Made by a program: the position numbers and the translations under genes
In this document: one piece after another, positions 30,287 to 37,343 of the stretch
Layout of the letters: each line of letters opens with the position of its first letter
Numbering within the stretch: the first letter of the stretch is position 1
The notes under the pieces: generated by a model
What the model saw: only the letters and a program-made list of their open reading frames with translations
Told to the model about the DNA's origin: nothing
The model's database searches: none
DNA from: Phycisphaerae bacterium
Lineage (GTDB): Bacteria > Planctomycetota > Phycisphaerae > UBA1845 > Fen-1342
Direction of reading: 5' to 3'
Assembly (NCBI GenBank): GCA_028279405.1
Contig: JANQNU010000035.1
Coordinates: forward strand, 1 to 64,000
Length of the DNA stretch: 64,000 nucleotides

Positions 30287-30490
30287 TTACCCATTGCGCT
30301 TGCCGGCGTCCTCGTGCGCGATCCCGAGAATCAGCGCGACGCCGACGCCCAGTACGCTAAGGACAGCCTCTGGAGAGAGGTCGAAGCCGAACTGGGCGGC
30401 ATAAGCACCAATCACGGTTGCGAGTCCAACTTGTACCTTTCGGCTGCGCAGCGGCCAGAGCCAGCGTCGTGCACCGGTCGAAGTCTTCAT
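30287..30490 (-). CDS. Small one-helix membrane protein, last gene of capsid module
   Basis: A 67-residue protein with a basic N-terminus (RRWLWPLRSRK) and a hydrophobic region of about 45 residues (VQVGLATVIGAYAAQFGF...AVLSVLGVGVALILGIA) that may form two helices. Its ATG overlaps the stop of the upstream lipoprotein gene (ATGA), so translation is coupled. In a phage context it is holin-like, but the sequence gives no firm family. Confidence 0.6.
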   Translation of the reverse strand: MKTSTGARRWLWPLRSRKVQVGLATVIGAYAAQFGFDLSPEAVLSVLGVGVALILGIAHEDAGKRNG

Positions 30491-31023
30491 CGGCGCACTT
30501 CCTTCCCGTTCGGCGCTATCGGTTCGCTGACCCGCGAGACATCGTCGGCTTCGACGGGGACCGGCGCTGCGGAGAGCGATCCGCCGAACCAGGCCGCCAG
30601 GCCGTCTTCGGCGCGGTCGAGCTTGCGCAACAGAGACTTCGTCAGGAGGTCGACGATCGACTGCTCGCTGTACAGCTTCGCGTCGACCGCGATTCGGCGC
30701 AGGTTCGCGGCGCGCTCGTTTTGTATGTGCCAGAACTCGAATCGGTCGCGCAGGTTCCACGCGTCGTTGAGTCGAGTGACCTGATGGTCGTTGAGCGGCT
30801 CGCCAGCATCAGCGAGCCGACTGAGCGTGTCCCGAAAGAGCAGGATTTTCAGGGACTCGTGTTGGTTCTCGAATAGCGTTTGACGGACGTCGTCGACGCG
30901 CCGCTGCGTCTCGATCGCGATTCGCGTTGACTCCTGCGTGCACCCGCCGATCAGCAGTTGGGTTGCGACAAGTATGATGTGTATTCGGTGGCGTCGCGCC
31001 GTTGCACGGATTGGTGATTCCAT
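30487..31023 (-). CDS. Lipoprotein in the capsid module, possible spanin-like
   Basis: A 178-residue predicted lipoprotein. A basic start and hydrophobic stretch (HIILVATQLLIGGC) end in a good lipobox with Cys28. The rest is helical and charged with coiled-coil-like heptads and little beta sequence. GGAG eight bases before the ATG. Its place at the end of a phage-type operon beside small membrane proteins suggests an outer-membrane lysis protein (spanin-like), though a host lipoprotein gene is possible. No homology is recognised. Confidence 0.6.
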   Translation of the reverse strand: MESPIRATARRHRIHIILVATQLLIGGCTQESTRIAIETQRRVDDVRQTLFENQHESLKILLFRDTLSRLADAGEPLNDHQVTRLNDAWNLRDRFEFWHIQNERAANLRRIAVDAKLYSEQSIVDLLTKSLLRKLDRAEDGLAAWFGGSLSAAPVPVEADDVSRVSEPIAPNGKEVRR

Positions 31024-31048
31024 CGGTTCGGCTCCGTTCCGGGTTTCG

Positions 31049-31345
31049 CTAGGACAACATCGTCAGGGCACGGATCGCGAAGACGACGCCGTCGGTCCAT
31101 TTCTCACTCGCTAGCGCTTCGGTGAACCGTTGCACGGTCTGGTCTAGTTCGGCGCGCGAGATCCAGCCTTGCGGGGGCGCAGCGTTCGGCAATTCGGCAC
31201 GCGCATAGTCGCGGTCCGTCGGCGCTTGCGTTTCCGCTACTCGTTGCCCTTCGATCAGCATGGCGTCGATGACGTGTCGCGCGGCGCGCACGAACGCCTG
31301 TGCCGCTCCGGCATCGATTCGGTTCGCGAGTTGCTCCAGCTTCAT
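31049..31345 (-). CDS. Small hypothetical protein of capsid module
   Basis: A 98-residue soluble, mostly helical protein (LEQLANRIDAGAAQAFVRAARHVIDAML, then LDQTVQRFTEALASEKWTDGVVFAIRALTML). AAGGAG is present seven to eight bases upstream of the ATG. It lies between a holin-like gene and the lipoprotein gene. No family recognised. Confidence 0.6.
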   Translation of the reverse strand: MKLEQLANRIDAGAAQAFVRAARHVIDAMLIEGQRVAETQAPTDRDYARAELPNAAPPQGWISRAELDQTVQRFTEALASEKWTDGVVFAIRALTMLS

Positions 31346-31357
31346 TGGTTGGCTCCT

Positions 31358-31663
31358 TCAGGTTCGTTCCGTCGCGTGAGACCGCAGCAATTCGAGCTGT
31401 TCGAGCTGGCGGTTGACGCGACCCATCCAGTCGTTCTCGGTCGCGCGGTGGGTGCGGAGTTCCTCGCGCAGCTCGGTCATCGCTTGCGTGTTGGCCTTCA
31501 CGACGGCGAGCAAGCGGTCGTTCATGTCCGATACGAGTTGCTTGACGGCTTCGTGCAGGCCGACGGTGTTTTGCGCGCGTTCCTTGCGCTCGAACCACCA
31601 CATCACAAACAGCAGGCCTGCCATGCCGAGCGAGGGGAGTTGTTTGAGCAGTTCCGGCGGCAT
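31358..31663 (-). CDS. Holin-like membrane and coiled-coil protein
   Basis: A 101-residue protein with one N-terminal hydrophobic helix (LPSLGMAGLLFVMWWF, about 9-24), a basic KERAQ turn, and a long charged coiled coil (about 30-95). This shape matches several phage hemolysin-XhlA- or holin-like accessory proteins. Its ATG at 31663 shares one base with the stop codon of the preceding gene (TGATG), so translation is coupled. Function inferred from shape and position only. Confidence 0.6.
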   Translation of the reverse strand: MPPELLKQLPSLGMAGLLFVMWWFERKERAQNTVGLHEAVKQLVSDMNDRLLAVVKANTQAMTELREELRTHRATENDWMGRVNRQLEQLELLRSHATERT

Positions 31664-31989
31664 CACGCGACCTTGTCGTACCACAGCGTGAGTCCCAGCT
31701 CCGACGGCGCGCCTTGGTAGACGGTCGTCAGGCCAAGCGCCATCGAACGTTGGGTCGCGATCGCGAAACGGTCGGCGAAATCGAAGACACCGACCGAGCC
31801 GTTGGTGATTCGCAGCCGAGCCGTCAAGGCAAGTTCTGCGCCGCCTTTCGGGTCCGAGAGCAGCTGGACCCAGGCACCGACCCAGCCGGTCACGATCAGT
31901 CGATGTATGCGGATCACGCGGTCGGTCGTCGCCGACACGAGGACCGTGCCGGTTTGTGCCGTCGCGTAGTGGAATGTACCGGTCGTCAT
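31663..31989 (-). CDS. Small beta-rich protein of capsid module
   Basis: A 108-residue protein, beta-rich throughout (GTVLVSATTDRVIRIHRLIV, VQLLSDPKGG, LTTVYQGAPSELGLTLWYD). The ATG at 31989 has AGAGG upstream and starts a compact fold; the open frame extends further upstream but overlaps the gp36-like gene. It looks like a small decoration or tail-interface protein. No family recognised with confidence. Confidence 0.65.
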   Translation of the reverse strand: MTTGTFHYATAQTGTVLVSATTDRVIRIHRLIVTGWVGAWVQLLSDPKGGAELALTARLRITNGSVGVFDFADRFAIATQRSMALGLTTVYQGAPSELGLTLWYDKVA

Positions 31990-32033: not shown

Positions 32034-32486
32034 CTAGAGTCCGTCCAGTTCGGCTTGCGTCAGTGTTCGCGGTGCGCTGCGGTAGCGTGGGGTGTCGGGG
32101 TTGTCCCCGGAGTGCGCGATTGGCGTTTCTGTCGGCAAACGGACGACGCCGCTCGCGACCGACTCCAGCCAGCGAAGCGCGGTTGTCCGCAGCATCTCGA
32201 CGCGTGTCGGGACATCGCTCACGAACGGCGAACCCTGCCACAAGCGATGTTCGGCCAGGTCGAGCGTACGCGCCTTGATGATCGTCTCGAAGCCAGGGTC
32301 GGCAGCGAGGTCGATCGGCGTCGTGAACCGTCGCGCGAGATAGCTCTCGATCTCGGCTTCCGCCTCATCGATGCTGCGCTGTCCGACGACGTTGTCCGCG
32401 ACCGAGCCGTTGATGCGGTCGGTGAGTCGTGCATAGAGCGTAGCGCCCAGACGGTCGCTGAGCTCTGTGGTCGATACGATGGCCAT
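32034..32486 (-). CDS. Mu gp36-like protein (DUF1320), head-tail connector
   Basis: A 150-residue protein of the DUF1320 / Mu gp36 type. The N-terminal helical domain reads STTELSDRLGATLYARLTDRING and AEAEIESYLARRFTTPID, matching this family and the wider HK97 gp6-like connector fold. GAGGAG lies six bases before the ATG. It follows the major head gene, the same relative order as in Mu. Confidence 0.8.
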   Translation of the reverse strand: MAIVSTTELSDRLGATLYARLTDRINGSVADNVVGQRSIDEAEAEIESYLARRFTTPIDLAADPGFETIIKARTLDLAEHRLWQGSPFVSDVPTRVEMLRTTALRWLESVASGVVRLPTETPIAHSGDNPDTPRYRSAPRTLTQAELDGL

Positions 32487-32571: not shown

Positions 32572-33501
32572 TTACGTCAACGTCACCAGGCAGGCGTCCT
32601 GCCAGAAGCCATAACCCGCGGCATGGATGGCTTTGACGCCGAACTGGTGCTGGTTCTCATTGATCTCGAGTTCGCTGCCTTCGGCGAGGACCTGCATCTG
32701 CACCGGCAACTCCTCTTGGAAGATGAAGGGGCGCGTCTCGCCGTCGGTGCGAAAGACCGTGAAGCGGTCGGTCCAGCTGAGTCGCGGGTTCGCGACCCAC
32801 TGGATGGTGAAGGGCTCACTCGCTGCGAGCGGGTTGTCGGAGTTTGCGATGGTGCCGCTGGAGAGCGCGATGAGCGTCGACGAAAGGAAGTTCATCGGCA
32901 CCATGACGAGGAATCGCGCGGCTCCTTCGTTCATCGGCTCGCCTTGGTCGTCGCGCTGGCGCAGAATCTGTGCGATGCCATCGACGATCGCTTCGTACAT
33001 CTCGCTGTCGGTGGGCGCGCTCGGCGTCGCGACGTCGTGCGTGATACTGTTGCTTTGCGTTCCCGATTCGCCTTCACTGTGATCGGTCGCAAAGAACTCG
33101 GCACCGTCGTAGACGACCGTGCTCGCGCCGTTCTCTACCAGCTGCGTCAGCAGTTTGTTGGGATGCAGTGCGACTCGTCGCGCCAGCTCGTTCACCCGAA
33201 TCATGATCTGGCCCGTCTTGTCACGGCGTTGCTCGTCAGCGTCGACGCGGATGGTCGACTCCCACGTCTTGTTGATGATCGTCTGACCGTTGGCACGCAG
33301 CGGTCGCGCCTGACGGCCGCCTTTCCACTCGCGTATTTGCGGCACCATGCCGAGCCAGCGGTAGGTCTCCGATTCCTGCGCACTCGGGAAACGCATTGCG
33401 ACCTGCGTCCACCAGGCGGCGTCCGCGAACTCTTCGAGTCGTCGAAAAAAGCGGCCGATCACAGCCCTCGATGACAACCCGGTATCGACAACAACACTCA
33501 T
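32572..33501 (-). CDS. Mu-like major head protein gpT
   Basis: A 309-residue protein of the Mu gpT family (HK97-like capsid fold). Typical sequence includes WLGMVPQIREWKGGRQ, TIINKTWESTIRVDADEQRRDKTGQ, FFATDHSEGESGTQSNSITH and FRTDGETRPFIFQEELPVQ. Many copies would build the icosahedral shell. The reading frame is complete, and GAGG sits close to the ATG at 33501. Its neighbours (protease, cement, connector, portal) are the normal partners. Confidence 0.92.
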   Translation of the reverse strand: MSVVVDTGLSSRAVIGRFFRRLEEFADAAWWTQVAMRFPSAQESETYRWLGMVPQIREWKGGRQARPLRANGQTIINKTWESTIRVDADEQRRDKTGQIMIRVNELARRVALHPNKLLTQLVENGASTVVYDGAEFFATDHSEGESGTQSNSITHDVATPSAPTDSEMYEAIVDGIAQILRQRDDQGEPMNEGAARFLVMVPMNFLSSTLIALSSGTIANSDNPLAASEPFTIQWVANPRLSWTDRFTVFRTDGETRPFIFQEELPVQMQVLAEGSELEINENQHQFGVKAIHAAGYGFWQDACLVTLT

Positions 33502-33517: not shown

Positions 33518-34252
33518 TTAGGCCAAATCGCGGCTGGCGATCACCCATTGCGTTCCGGTACAGATCAGCAGCGCGCTGTCATAGATCGCGTCGACGCCGA
33601 TGAACGTCGCCGAGCCGTCGATCGTCTCCGATGCGTTACCGTCCAGCGCGATCGCGGCGGCAGCGGCGGACGTCTTGATCAATGTGAACCAGCCGCCGGC
33701 GCCGACCTGCGCCACCGGTGGTAGCGTGAGCACACGCGCTGCGGTGTTCGGCATCGTCAGCACGCGGTTCATGTGATCGAGTGTCAGCGTCATTGTCTGG
33801 TCCGGCAGCGTGACAGCCGGAAGCGGTTCGAGCGCGCCGTCCAGCGTTGCGATCGGCGTGCAGCGTACACGCGCTGTGTTGGTCGTTTCGACCGCGACCA
33901 CTCGGCCGACGCGGCTTCCGACGTTGTTCAGGGTCAGCGTCTCGTCGTCCGAGGCATACACCGGTCTTCCGATGTCCGCGGTCGCGACGCCACTCAGTGG
34001 ATGCACGATGTCGATCGTTTGAAACAGCCGAGCGCTGATACCGCCGGCGGTGTGCCCTGCGACCGTGTTGTCCGCTTGCCGGTAAGCCACGCCGACGAAC
34101 TCGTCTCCGGCAACCAGCGGTCGCACGAAGCCGGTCGCGCGGTTGCGCCCGACCAGCGCCCCCTTGTAGATCAGTACGTTGTCGTCGACTGCTAGGTCGA
34201 TCAACTCGTTCGAGGTGAAGAAGTCGATATCGCGGTTTGCCGTCAATGCCAT
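33518..34252 (-). CDS. DUF2190-type cement protein with fibre-like C-terminal domain
   Basis: A 244-residue protein. Residues 1 to ~140 match DUF2190 (ELIDLAVDDNVLIYKGALVGRN, AGDEFVGVAYRQADNT, ADIGRPVYASDDETLTL), a capsid-decorating cement family. Residues ~150-244 are a beta-rich domain (RVLTLPPVAQVGAGGWFTLIK, IALDGNASETIDGSATF, SALLICTGTQWVIA) like those ending phage head or tail fibres. The ATG at 34252 has AGGAG seven bases upstream. The two-domain layout suggests a surface decoration with an exposed binding part. Confidence 0.8.
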   Translation of the reverse strand: MALTANRDIDFFTSNELIDLAVDDNVLIYKGALVGRNRATGFVRPLVAGDEFVGVAYRQADNTVAGHTAGGISARLFQTIDIVHPLSGVATADIGRPVYASDDETLTLNNVGSRVGRVVAVETTNTARVRCTPIATLDGALEPLPAVTLPDQTMTLTLDHMNRVLTMPNTAARVLTLPPVAQVGAGGWFTLIKTSAAAAAIALDGNASETIDGSATFIGVDAIYDSALLICTGTQWVIASRDLA

Positions 34253-34336
34253 CGATTCACTCCTGCTGCGTTGTTCAGTCAAAACTGGCGGTTGAGCCGT
34301 CTACGGGTGCACTGTCGGGATCGTTTTCGTGTCGCG

Positions 34337-35419
34337 TCAGTGACCGTGCCGGACGCGCCCGGCTGCGGAGGCCCGCTCATACGCGGCAAGATCACGTTGC
34401 TCGACGTCTGTCGGGTCGCGCGGTGCGTCATCCGGTGCGGGTAGTGCGGCGACTTGTCCGCGACGATCGAGCGTCACGATTCGTCCTGGCGGCAGGATCG
34501 TCGGTGTGCGCGAAAGACGTGATTCGGCCGCCTGGGGATCACGCAGGTAGTCGGCGCGCCAGTCCATGCTGGTGCTGTCGAGGACCTTGCCCAGTCGCAA
34601 GCCGCGCTCGACGAATGCGTCCGCTTCCTGAATCGCGAGTCGGGTCTTGAGATCGATGATTTCACGCCGAGCCGTCAGCAGCGCGTCGGGCGCCGGATCA
34701 ATGGGCGCGGGTGCCTCGGGATTAGCGTTTCCGTCATGCCGTGCGCGGCCTGCCGCGAGTTCGGGGATACTGCGCAGCGCCGGATCGTTGGTGAGCGCAA
34801 CGGGCCCGAGCGCCGCGATGTCGCTGTAGTCCTCGTCGGTCCAGAAGATGACCGGCGAGAAGTAGCGGTACTCGCCGGTGCGCAGCAGGTTCGCAGCGCG
34901 TTCTGTCCAGGTCACGTCGGTTGCGTACAAGCCGGCGTCGCGGATCTCGAGTCCGCCGATCCAGCCGGCGGCCGGGCGCAATCCGTCCGGACGCGTGTTG
35001 AATCGTTCCAGCGACTGATGTTCGTAGTCGATTGCCAGTCGGCGGTTGAGCCGCTGGAACCACGCGACGGCGGACGCGGCGTGCTCGCGGGTGAAGACGA
35101 AGCTGCCGCCGGCGAGCGGGCGTTCGACCTCGACGTCGCCGAAGGGGATCAGCAGGAACTCCCGGACGGGTTCGGCTGGCAGCTGTTTGAGGACGGTTGC
35201 GTGGGTCTCGCGGCACGTGCCCTCGGCAGCGTCCAGCGTGCGCGTCAGTTCGAGCGTCTGCAAGCGATCCTGCATTTCCGCGAGCAGCACGCCGAGGCGG
35301 GGGGCGTGCTGGGCCGGATCCGCCTGAATCAGCGCCGAGACCTCCGCGACGGAAGTCGTTAATGCTCGCTGCAGAGGCTCCAACAGGGGGTTCTGGAAAA
35401 GCGGTTGCGGTTCATTCAT
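34337..35419 (-). CDS. Mu gpI-like capsid maturation protease / scaffold
   Basis: A 360-residue protein of the Mu protease (gpI) type. The protease part includes FGDVEVERPLAGGSFVFTREHAASAVAWFQRLNRRLAIDYEHQS and the later RTGEYRYFSPVIFWT and GPVALTNDPALRSIPEL. The C-terminal ~120 residues are helical (DALLTARREIIDLKTRLAIQEADAFVERG), as in the scaffold part. It would trim capsid precursors during assembly. Its ATG overlaps the stop of the GNAT gene (ATGA). Confidence 0.9.
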   Translation of the reverse strand: MNEPQPLFQNPLLEPLQRALTTSVAEVSALIQADPAQHAPRLGVLLAEMQDRLQTLELTRTLDAAEGTCRETHATVLKQLPAEPVREFLLIPFGDVEVERPLAGGSFVFTREHAASAVAWFQRLNRRLAIDYEHQSLERFNTRPDGLRPAAGWIGGLEIRDAGLYATDVTWTERAANLLRTGEYRYFSPVIFWTDEDYSDIAALGPVALTNDPALRSIPELAAGRARHDGNANPEAPAPIDPAPDALLTARREIIDLKTRLAIQEADAFVERGLRLGKVLDSTSMDWRADYLRDPQAAESRLSRTPTILPPGRIVTLDRRGQVAALPAPDDAPRDPTDVEQRDLAAYERASAAGRVRHGH

Positions 35420-36000
35420 GCTTCACTTCCTTTCGATCGTGAACGGCGCTTCGCTGCGGATCGGGTGGTTCTGTTTGCCGACCGCGGCGCCGGATCCGAC
35501 GCAGTTTGTCCGGTAGCGTTGTTGTGGATCAGTCGCGGCCCCGACGCCGGGCGTTCCATCAACTCGATGTTGCCTTTTGCGTTTCGGGCGCCTGTGCGGT
35601 GGAAGCCGAGCCGTTCATAGAAGCGGCGTGGATCACCGGTGCTCATGTCGAGCTTGGCACGGACGCTGATGGCGCCACTGGCTTCGATCAGCGCGCGGCC
35701 GACCTGCATCCCGCGGTAGGCCGGATGCACCAGGACGTTTGTCAGGCAGGTGCCGCGGGTCTTGATCGCGACGCCGACAAGCACGCTGTCCAGCTCCGCG
35801 ACATAGACCGTGTGATACTTGTCCGTGCAGATATCCTCGAGTTGTCCGCGGCGCAGGAAGTAGTCGTTGCGCAGCACGGTGTCGAAGAAGAAGCGCAAGG
35901 GTGCCAGGTCGAGCGCGGTTACGGTTCGGATCCGCAGGGCTGCCGGGGCGGGTGGATCGGCGTGCGCGGCGATGTGTTTCCGGGCTGCGGCAGCGCTCAT
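35416..36000 (-). CDS. GNAT acetyltransferase inside the capsid operon
   Basis: A 194-residue protein with a GNAT fold at about 20-150: IRTVTALDLAPLRFFFDTVL, the beta strands TVYVAELDSVLVGVAIKTRG, the acetyl-CoA loop VHPAYRGMQVGRALIEA (V/I-x-P-x-Y-R-G-x-x-x-G) and FYERLGFHRTG. The C-terminal ~40 residues are basic and low-complexity. It overlaps both neighbours by four bases (ATGA), so it is translated as part of the module. It occupies the place of the Mu minor head genes F and G. A substrate, perhaps a virion or host protein, is unknown. Confidence 0.85.
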   Translation of the reverse strand: MSAAAARKHIAAHADPPAPAALRIRTVTALDLAPLRFFFDTVLRNDYFLRRGQLEDICTDKYHTVYVAELDSVLVGVAIKTRGTCLTNVLVHPAYRGMQVGRALIEASGAISVRAKLDMSTGDPRRFYERLGFHRTGARNAKGNIELMERPASGPRLIHNNATGQTASDPAPRSANRTTRSAAKRRSRSKGSEA

Positions 36001-37343
36001 CGGACGGTTCCGGCCTGCAGCACCGCTTCATCGTTCGTCGGTTCGGGAATTCCGAGCGAGCGATGCGCCCAGCGGCTCGGAACACGCATGCCGATCCGAT
36101 TAACCGCGACCGCCAGCGTGTCGGCGAGGACCTTCGTGTCGACGGATTGCACGAGCGATCGGCGAAAGTGAGGGACGGGCGCCTGCGGGCCGAATCGCGC
36201 GTGTACCATCGGGGTCAACAGATCGCGACGAATCGTCTCAGCTTCGTCGTGAATATCGTCGACCAGCAGGTCCTCGCGCACGCGATCGTGAATCTCAGCG
36301 GCCGCTCGCGAACCGGACTGACGGATGTCGGTCGTGAGATGCTGCCCGAGCCACAGGATCGTGATCTCTGTGTTGCAATAGTTCTGTATCGCCTCGTACG
36401 GGCGGGGCCCGCTGGCGGCATCGAGCAGTTTGAGGTCGATGTTCTTGCTGAATACCGCAGCGGCCTCGGTCCCGAGCGAGCCGAGCATCTTCAGCAACTG
36501 GGCCTTGTCCTGATCGGTCACGCCGCTGTCGAACTGCGCGACGCGGATCGGCATTCCGGCGATCTGCGAGTAGACCAGCCAATCCTTGAAGCTCAGATTC
36601 TGTGCGATGTAGAGCAGCGCGCTGGCCCGTAGCAGCCCGCCTTGAAAGGGTCGGCCCGGCGTCGCGCGCGGTTCGTGAATGATCCATTTGTTGGCTTGTT
36701 CGTCGAGCGCGATGCCGTCGGTCGGATGCTCCTGCGTACGAACGCGCAGCCGACAGGGTTCGAGACGGTCGCTGACGAGTCGACTCATCGGCACCGGGAC
36801 CAGATCGATCAGTTCGCCGCGCTCCCAGACCAGTTCCGCGACCGAGATTCCCTGTCCGATCGCATTCGCGAGATGGTCGAGGGTCGTTCGCAACGCAGGG
36901 AGCTGGTCGAGGCGCATCGCGCACCACTCGACGACCGCGTCGGCCGTAACGGTCGGCTGCGATGAGGAAGGGGAGGGGAAGGAGGAGGGGGAGGGGGAGG
37001 GACCGGGCCGGACTGGTGTCGGGGCGGCGGCAGGTGTGAGTTCCCAGTCCAGCCCGGTGAGGGCAAGTCGTCGCGTGCTCTCGACCGCCGTCAGGCGCGG
37101 CCACTTCTGCAGCATCTCGGCGAACAGCTCGAACATCGATTGGGGCATGCCCGCGTCCGCCGACTGCAGCAACGACAGCATCCGTGATGGCGTGAGCCCG
37201 ACGGTCGGATAGCTGCGCAACGCGTCTTCACGCCATGAGTGAATCAGCTGCGATCCGATGGGTTGTCGCGACCGACTCGGCGGCAGTAACGAACCGAGCT
37301 GTCGAAGTGCGGTGGTCACGAGCGTGCGGGCAGACCTGATCAC
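35997..37343 (-). CDS. Mu gp29-like portal protein (DUF935)
   Basis: A 448-residue protein of the DUF935 portal family, the twelve-copy ring at one capsid vertex. Family sequence includes LTPSRMLSLLQSADAGMPQSMFELFAEMLQKWP, LTGLDWELTP, GISVAELVWE, GRPFQGGLLRASALLYIAQNLSFKDWLVYSQIAGMPIRVAQFD and WLGQHLTTD. A Pro/Ser linker (PTPVRPGPSPSPSSFPSPSS, about 108-127) is inserted near the clip region, which is odd. It is the first gene of the module; the terminase gene expected upstream is missing. Confidence 0.92.
   Translation of the reverse strand: MIRSARTLVTTALRQLGSLLPPSRSRQPIGSQLIHSWREDALRSYPTVGLTPSRMLSLLQSADAGMPQSMFELFAEMLQKWPRLTAVESTRRLALTGLDWELTPAAAPTPVRPGPSPSPSSFPSPSSSQPTVTADAVVEWCAMRLDQLPALRTTLDHLANAIGQGISVAELVWERGELIDLVPVPMSRLVSDRLEPCRLRVRTQEHPTDGIALDEQANKWIIHEPRATPGRPFQGGLLRASALLYIAQNLSFKDWLVYSQIAGMPIRVAQFDSGVTDQDKAQLLKMLGSLGTEAAAVFSKNIDLKLLDAASGPRPYEAIQNYCNTEITILWLGQHLTTDIRQSGSRAAAEIHDRVREDLLVDDIHDEAETIRRDLLTPMVHARFGPQAPVPHFRRSLVQSVDTKVLADTLAVAVNRIGMRVPSRWAHRSLGIPEPTNDEAVLQAGTVR

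Follow-up and report, generated by a model that had tools for sequence, protein, structure and literature searches.

Why does an acetyltransferase gene lie inside an operon of phage head genes on a planctomycete chromosome? We examined this question in a window of 64,000 nucleotides (the whole stretch of DNA analysed) from a Phycisphaerae bacterium, in which the gene for a GNAT-type acetyltransferase directly follows that of a Mu-type portal protein. From its first gene onward, the operon reads as follows:

35997..37343, minus strand: Mu-type portal protein (PF06074), operon gene 1 (Pfam, 242 bits; phrog_113, 248 bits)
35416..36000, minus strand: GNAT acetyltransferase, 194 amino acids, ATG start (open reading frame list, Pfam, AlphaFold)
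34337..35419, minus strand: gpI-type head maturation protease (PF10123) with a C-terminal extension (Pfam, 116 bits; phrog_328)
33518..34282, minus strand: virion structural/decoration protein (phrog_1731; PHROG, 56 bits)
32572..33501, minus strand: gpT-type major head protein (PF10124; Pfam, 141 bits; phrog_371, 174 bits)
32034..32486, minus strand: gp36 head-tail adaptor (PF07030; Pfam, 57 bits; phrog_195)
31663..31989, minus strand: o31663, small conserved protein of the module in the window's family, kept across the family's loci, no family match
31358..31684, minus strand: o31358, small conserved protein with an N-terminal hydrophobic stretch (by eye) and a likely coiled coil
31049..31345, minus strand: o31049, small protein conserved in the family's loci
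30487..31023, minus strand: o30487, conserved lipoprotein-like protein with a lipobox-like start (by eye)
30287..30520, minus strand: o30287, holin-like small membrane protein, last conserved gene of the module (in frame with a longer open reading frame, 30287..30760)

The Pfam families Portal_Mu, Mu-like_Pro, Mu-like_gpT and Mu_Gp36 are all present and in order, which identifies a Mu-like head module. It shares the succession of portal, protease, decoration protein, major head protein and gp36 with the head modules of phage Mu and its relatives (TerL, portal gp29, F gp30, gpI, gpT, gp36), but differs from Mu in that no transposase, tail or MuF gene was found nearby, in carrying GNAT in the F/G interval and, in the window's family, in lacking a terminase. 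No promoter or terminator scored above shuffled sequences. The module closes with five small conserved genes (30287-31989), one lipoprotein-like and two with hydrophobic stretches seen by eye; these had no solid family match, and they possibly act in release or membrane attachment. The last of them, o30287, is conserved in the window's family and is also found in a prophage of the window's own genome. That prophage-like region (G000:C89:22000-41999, locus L047) is separate from the module and has an HK97-type portal-MuF and apparent protease, major capsid and tail-like genes, together with the relative of the holin-like o30287.

The acetyltransferase assignment itself is well supported. The open reading frame exceeds the curated Pfam cut-offs of PF13508, PF13673 and PF00583 (46 bits for Acetyltransf_7, against a cut-off of 27), and its AlphaFold model adopts the GNAT fold with a mean pLDDT of 81.8, rising above 90 over most of the core. 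The closest folds are RimI and PaiA, tied at Z ~15, with Ard1 and others also tying at Z 14-15. Since several acetyltransferases tie, the substrate is not readable from the fold: the N-terminal acetyltransferases RimI and Ard1 are alike in fold (Z ~14-15) and share only ~18-23% identity with GNAT, which scores 18.3 bits against the cut-off of 86.4 for the RimI equivalog, the S18 N-acetyltransferase. The first-pass annotation had held that a degenerate acetyl-CoA site in relatives would refute its reading of the gene. The site is not degenerate there; the pyrophosphate loop R-x-x-G-x-G/A is of the RGLGIG type in 19 of 21 complete alignment rows, and 31 columns are invariant across 20 sequences. 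In the window the loop reads RGMQVG, without the first glycine, and the protein departs from the family at two positions of the acetyl-CoA and catalytic region, G99Q and E112S, so the activity of this copy is less sure than that of its relatives. For one pair from two species of one genus, dN/dS was ~0.10 for GNAT and 0.11 for the portal gene, values that indicate purifying selection on GNAT. Together with the intact motif in relatives, this selection makes the enzyme look functional. Two other identities were tried and rejected: as a phage moron, the gene had no relative in IMG/VR (pattern scan) or in 50,697 phage records, and as a defence-system gene it had no match in PADLOC.

We then considered how tightly the enzyme is tied to the head genes. 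In the window it overlaps both the portal and the gpI frames by 4 bases, as the first-pass annotation had reported. The two overlaps fare differently among relatives. Every one of the 22 distinct loci of the window's family has GNAT immediately after the portal gene. Of 20 testable distinct loci, 19, among them the window, share an overlap of exactly 4 bases between the portal stop and the GNAT start, a recurrence that rules out chance. The overlap with gpI is not conserved; besides the window, only L050 and L053 were found to have it. Among the genes of the module, GNAT distances track those of the portal best (r=0.71, against 0.41-0.59 for the others, the locus sets differing). Portal and GNAT are also retained together at L035, where gpI through most of gpT is deleted, and at L045, where no further module gene was found on the stretch examined. 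In one draft genome, G095, the two form a single 750-aa open frame with a repeat-rich linker. These arrangements bear out the earlier proposal that GNAT is a built-in member of the module and no passenger, and indicate that it is translationally coupled to the portal gene.

Translational coupling could nevertheless serve an enzyme that never enters a particle. GNAT may be made alongside the head proteins and remain cytoplasmic, where it would acetylate, for example, gpT, the portal protein or a host protein at N termini or lysines; the 4-base coupling would then set stoichiometry only, and the nearest folds are stand-alone acetyltransferases that include the protein N-alpha acetyltransferases RimI and Ard1 (tied with others). 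We regard this as possible, though rather unlikely, given the portal fusion in G095 and the retention of GNAT with the portal where downstream head genes are lost (L035) or not adjacent (L045).

The position of GNAT would instead fit a protein of the head. In published work, muf genes directly follow portal genes (PMC5576092), and in phage SPP1 the MuF protein gp7 is reported to be brought inside the procapsid by the portal (PMC6316719). GNAT occupies the same position as MuF proteins such as SPP1 gp7 and Mu F, which are encoded behind the portal or fused to it (PMC5576092), but it has a GNAT fold with an acetyl-CoA motif and no Pfam match to the MuF domain, PF04233. The interval had been equated with that of F and G in Mu. 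This holds for related phage contigs, in which a MuF domain follows the portal (L122) or is fused to it (L120, L123, L125), but not as a direct exchange, as neither MuF nor GNAT was seen between portal and gpI in the modules of sister families. By parsimony, MuF would have been lost first and GNAT added later, making GNAT a positional, not a direct, replacement of F and G. It has been proposed that enzyme domains joined to MuF or portal proteins enter the particle and are injected (PMC5512222). Those cases share the placement of an enzyme at the portal/MuF position, but they occur in phages, and the GNATs described there have different settings and are not a fixed part of a head operon passed down vertically.

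To whom, then, does the module belong? Relatives were found in metagenome-assembled genomes of Phycisphaerae/Phycisphaerales, a few named only as Planctomycetota and one Armatimonadota genome that is probably mis-binned. Of the genomes sampled, the portal gene is present in 14/15 from the window's family (f1), in 46/50 from elsewhere in the order and in only 6/233 from elsewhere in the class, where most of the matches are weak. In a maximum-likelihood portal tree, each of four host families (f1 and three other families of the order, f2, f3 and f4) forms a single clade, with 4 label changes where the minimum is 4. Descent from their common ancestor best explains this congruence with the host families, the module having been passed down vertically within one order of Phycisphaerae. 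Divergent second copies of the portal gene are also present in some genomes and may be real prophages.

The surroundings of the module agree with a host-borne locus. The flanking genes tested in the window (QueC, TPR, kinase, glycerate kinase) belong to the host, and the G+C of the module is that of neighbouring host genes. We found no tail gene or integrase near the module; in the loci of relatives, with genes called using homology-trained codon tables, no tail gene was recognised beside it, and clustering of the flanks gave no shared phage gene set. The tail sheath PF04984 was absent from all 28 genomes searched, which represent both forms of the module (siphovirus tape-measure families being outside this search). 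With host flanks, host-like G+C and neither tail nor integrase found nearby, the module is not a prophage. It might still be a decaying remnant of a Mu-like prophage with a random added gene, a reading that would fit the survival of head genes only and the partial modules at L035, L045 and the f3 loci. We consider it very improbable, because the genes are intact and under selection across ~20 genera, their phylogeny is congruent with that of the hosts, and GNAT was not found in phage collections.

Against this order-wide background, GNAT is confined to one family. It is present in 21 of 27 f1 genomes (12 of the 13 of high quality, the exception, G077, also missing the portal) and in 0/87 genomes of the order outside f1 (E<=1e-10). 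The portal-GNAT-gpI order, whose conservation the first-pass annotation had proposed to check, is thus kept within f1 and does not extend to other families, making GNAT a late, single-lineage addition. The large terminase of the module shows the reverse distribution: its TerL profile matched 76/87 genomes of the other families and 0/27 of f1, the match in the window's own genome being a different terminase in the prophage on contig C89. Gene order changes accordingly, from TerL-portal-gpI-decoration-gpT-gp36 in f2 and f4, often followed by a gp37-like gene and without GNAT, to portal-GNAT-gpI-decoration-gpT-gp36 and up to five small conserved genes in f1; f3 keeps TerL-portal, with the remainder broken up. 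By these distributions, the gain of GNAT and the loss of TerL fall on the same lineage.

Several further arrangements were seen among the sister families. At the f3 loci L104, L105 and L066, the head module has been broken apart or has had some of its genes replaced by unrelated ones. At L113 (genome G184), a single 927-aa open frame spans TerL and portal, the second fusion seen within the module. A conserved ~700-aa protein with no family match (L059:2494-4617 and relatives) follows gp37 in several f2 and f4 modules. L059, L065, L063, L110 and other f2/f4 loci hold a compact module of TerL plus Mu-type head genes with no recognised tail or integrase nearby.

A terminase hidden elsewhere in f1 was considered and rejected, as other terminase families were patchy or absent by four profile searches (PF03237 alone, PF05876 and PF20441 lay outside them): Terminase_6C was found in 5/14 other f1 genomes and once in the window's own genome, TerL_ATPase in 2/18 f1 genomes and Terminase_3 in 0/18. 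This bears on whether the module is a gene transfer agent, with its terminase supplied from elsewhere and GNAT as an effector or protective enzyme that recipients would receive along with the DNA. Like gene transfer agents of the RcGTA type, the module consists of chromosomal, single-locus, vertically inherited phage head genes, but its genes are of Mu type, no tail was seen, and a packaging terminase of its own was found in 0/27 f1 genomes (some terminase families being outside the search). Order-wide inheritance and a TerL gene beside the head genes in sister families fit a GTA-like element, and the proposed injection of MuF- and portal-fused enzymes (PMC5512222) would fit delivery. However, most of f1 had no terminase by the four profile searches, tail genes were not recognised beside the module, and the tail sheath was found in none of the 28 genomes. 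Because f1 has lost the terminase, a plain gene transfer agent becomes less likely there, and we judge this explanation quite unlikely. It is plausible for the sister families, whose TerL-head module is a candidate agent of this kind for the order.

The explanation we favour, with confidence somewhat short of even, is that a domesticated Mu-type phage head without terminase has recruited GNAT as a minor head enzyme associated with the portal. A Mu-type head operon would have been domesticated and then inherited vertically through one order of Phycisphaerae; in the window's family, where the module's TerL is absent, a cellular-type GNAT would have been inserted directly behind the portal gene, to act in the MuF slot as a minor head protein bound up with the portal. 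The C termini of portal proteins generally point into the capsid, and the predicted portal structure of the module (pLDDT 60.9) is too weak to place its C terminus. GNAT could be carried with the portal into the procapsid interior, although we put such portal-guided loading at slightly less than an even chance. There it would acetylate protein amino groups of head or portal proteins, or act on a co-packaged or delivered target. Adjacency, the 4-base overlap, the G095 fusion, the distributions of GNAT and TerL, the portal tree, dN/dS, the MuF position, retention at L035 and L045 and the distance correlation together suggest this explanation. On the other side, a translationally coupled gene need not encode a physical partner of the portal, and the G095 fusion comes from one draft genome with a repeat-rich linker.

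What the f1 head became can be framed in the same terms. Having lost its DNA-packaging motor gene and gained an acetyltransferase, it suggests a domesticated phage head put to new use. The particle may be terminase-free with the acetyltransferase at the portal vertex, a portal-bearing enzyme compartment or delivery particle and not a DNA carrier; we think this form of the idea unlikely. Set beside encapsulin-like nanocompartments, in which an HK97-fold shell holds a dedicated enzyme cargo, the module has a gpT-type shell gene and an adjacent enzyme that would be a putative cargo, but it retains the portal.

Domesticated phage heads are already known. In the open-licence literature we found neither a report of Planctomycetota inheriting a phage head module vertically nor a description of the composition of the f1 module, portal plus GNAT without TerL. 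The order-wide module would provide a candidate GTA-like lineage distant from Alphaproteobacteria. Within it, the exchange of terminase for acetyltransferase in f1 would be a natural experiment on a domesticated capsid after the loss of its packaging motor, and would make the fate of domesticated heads directly testable.
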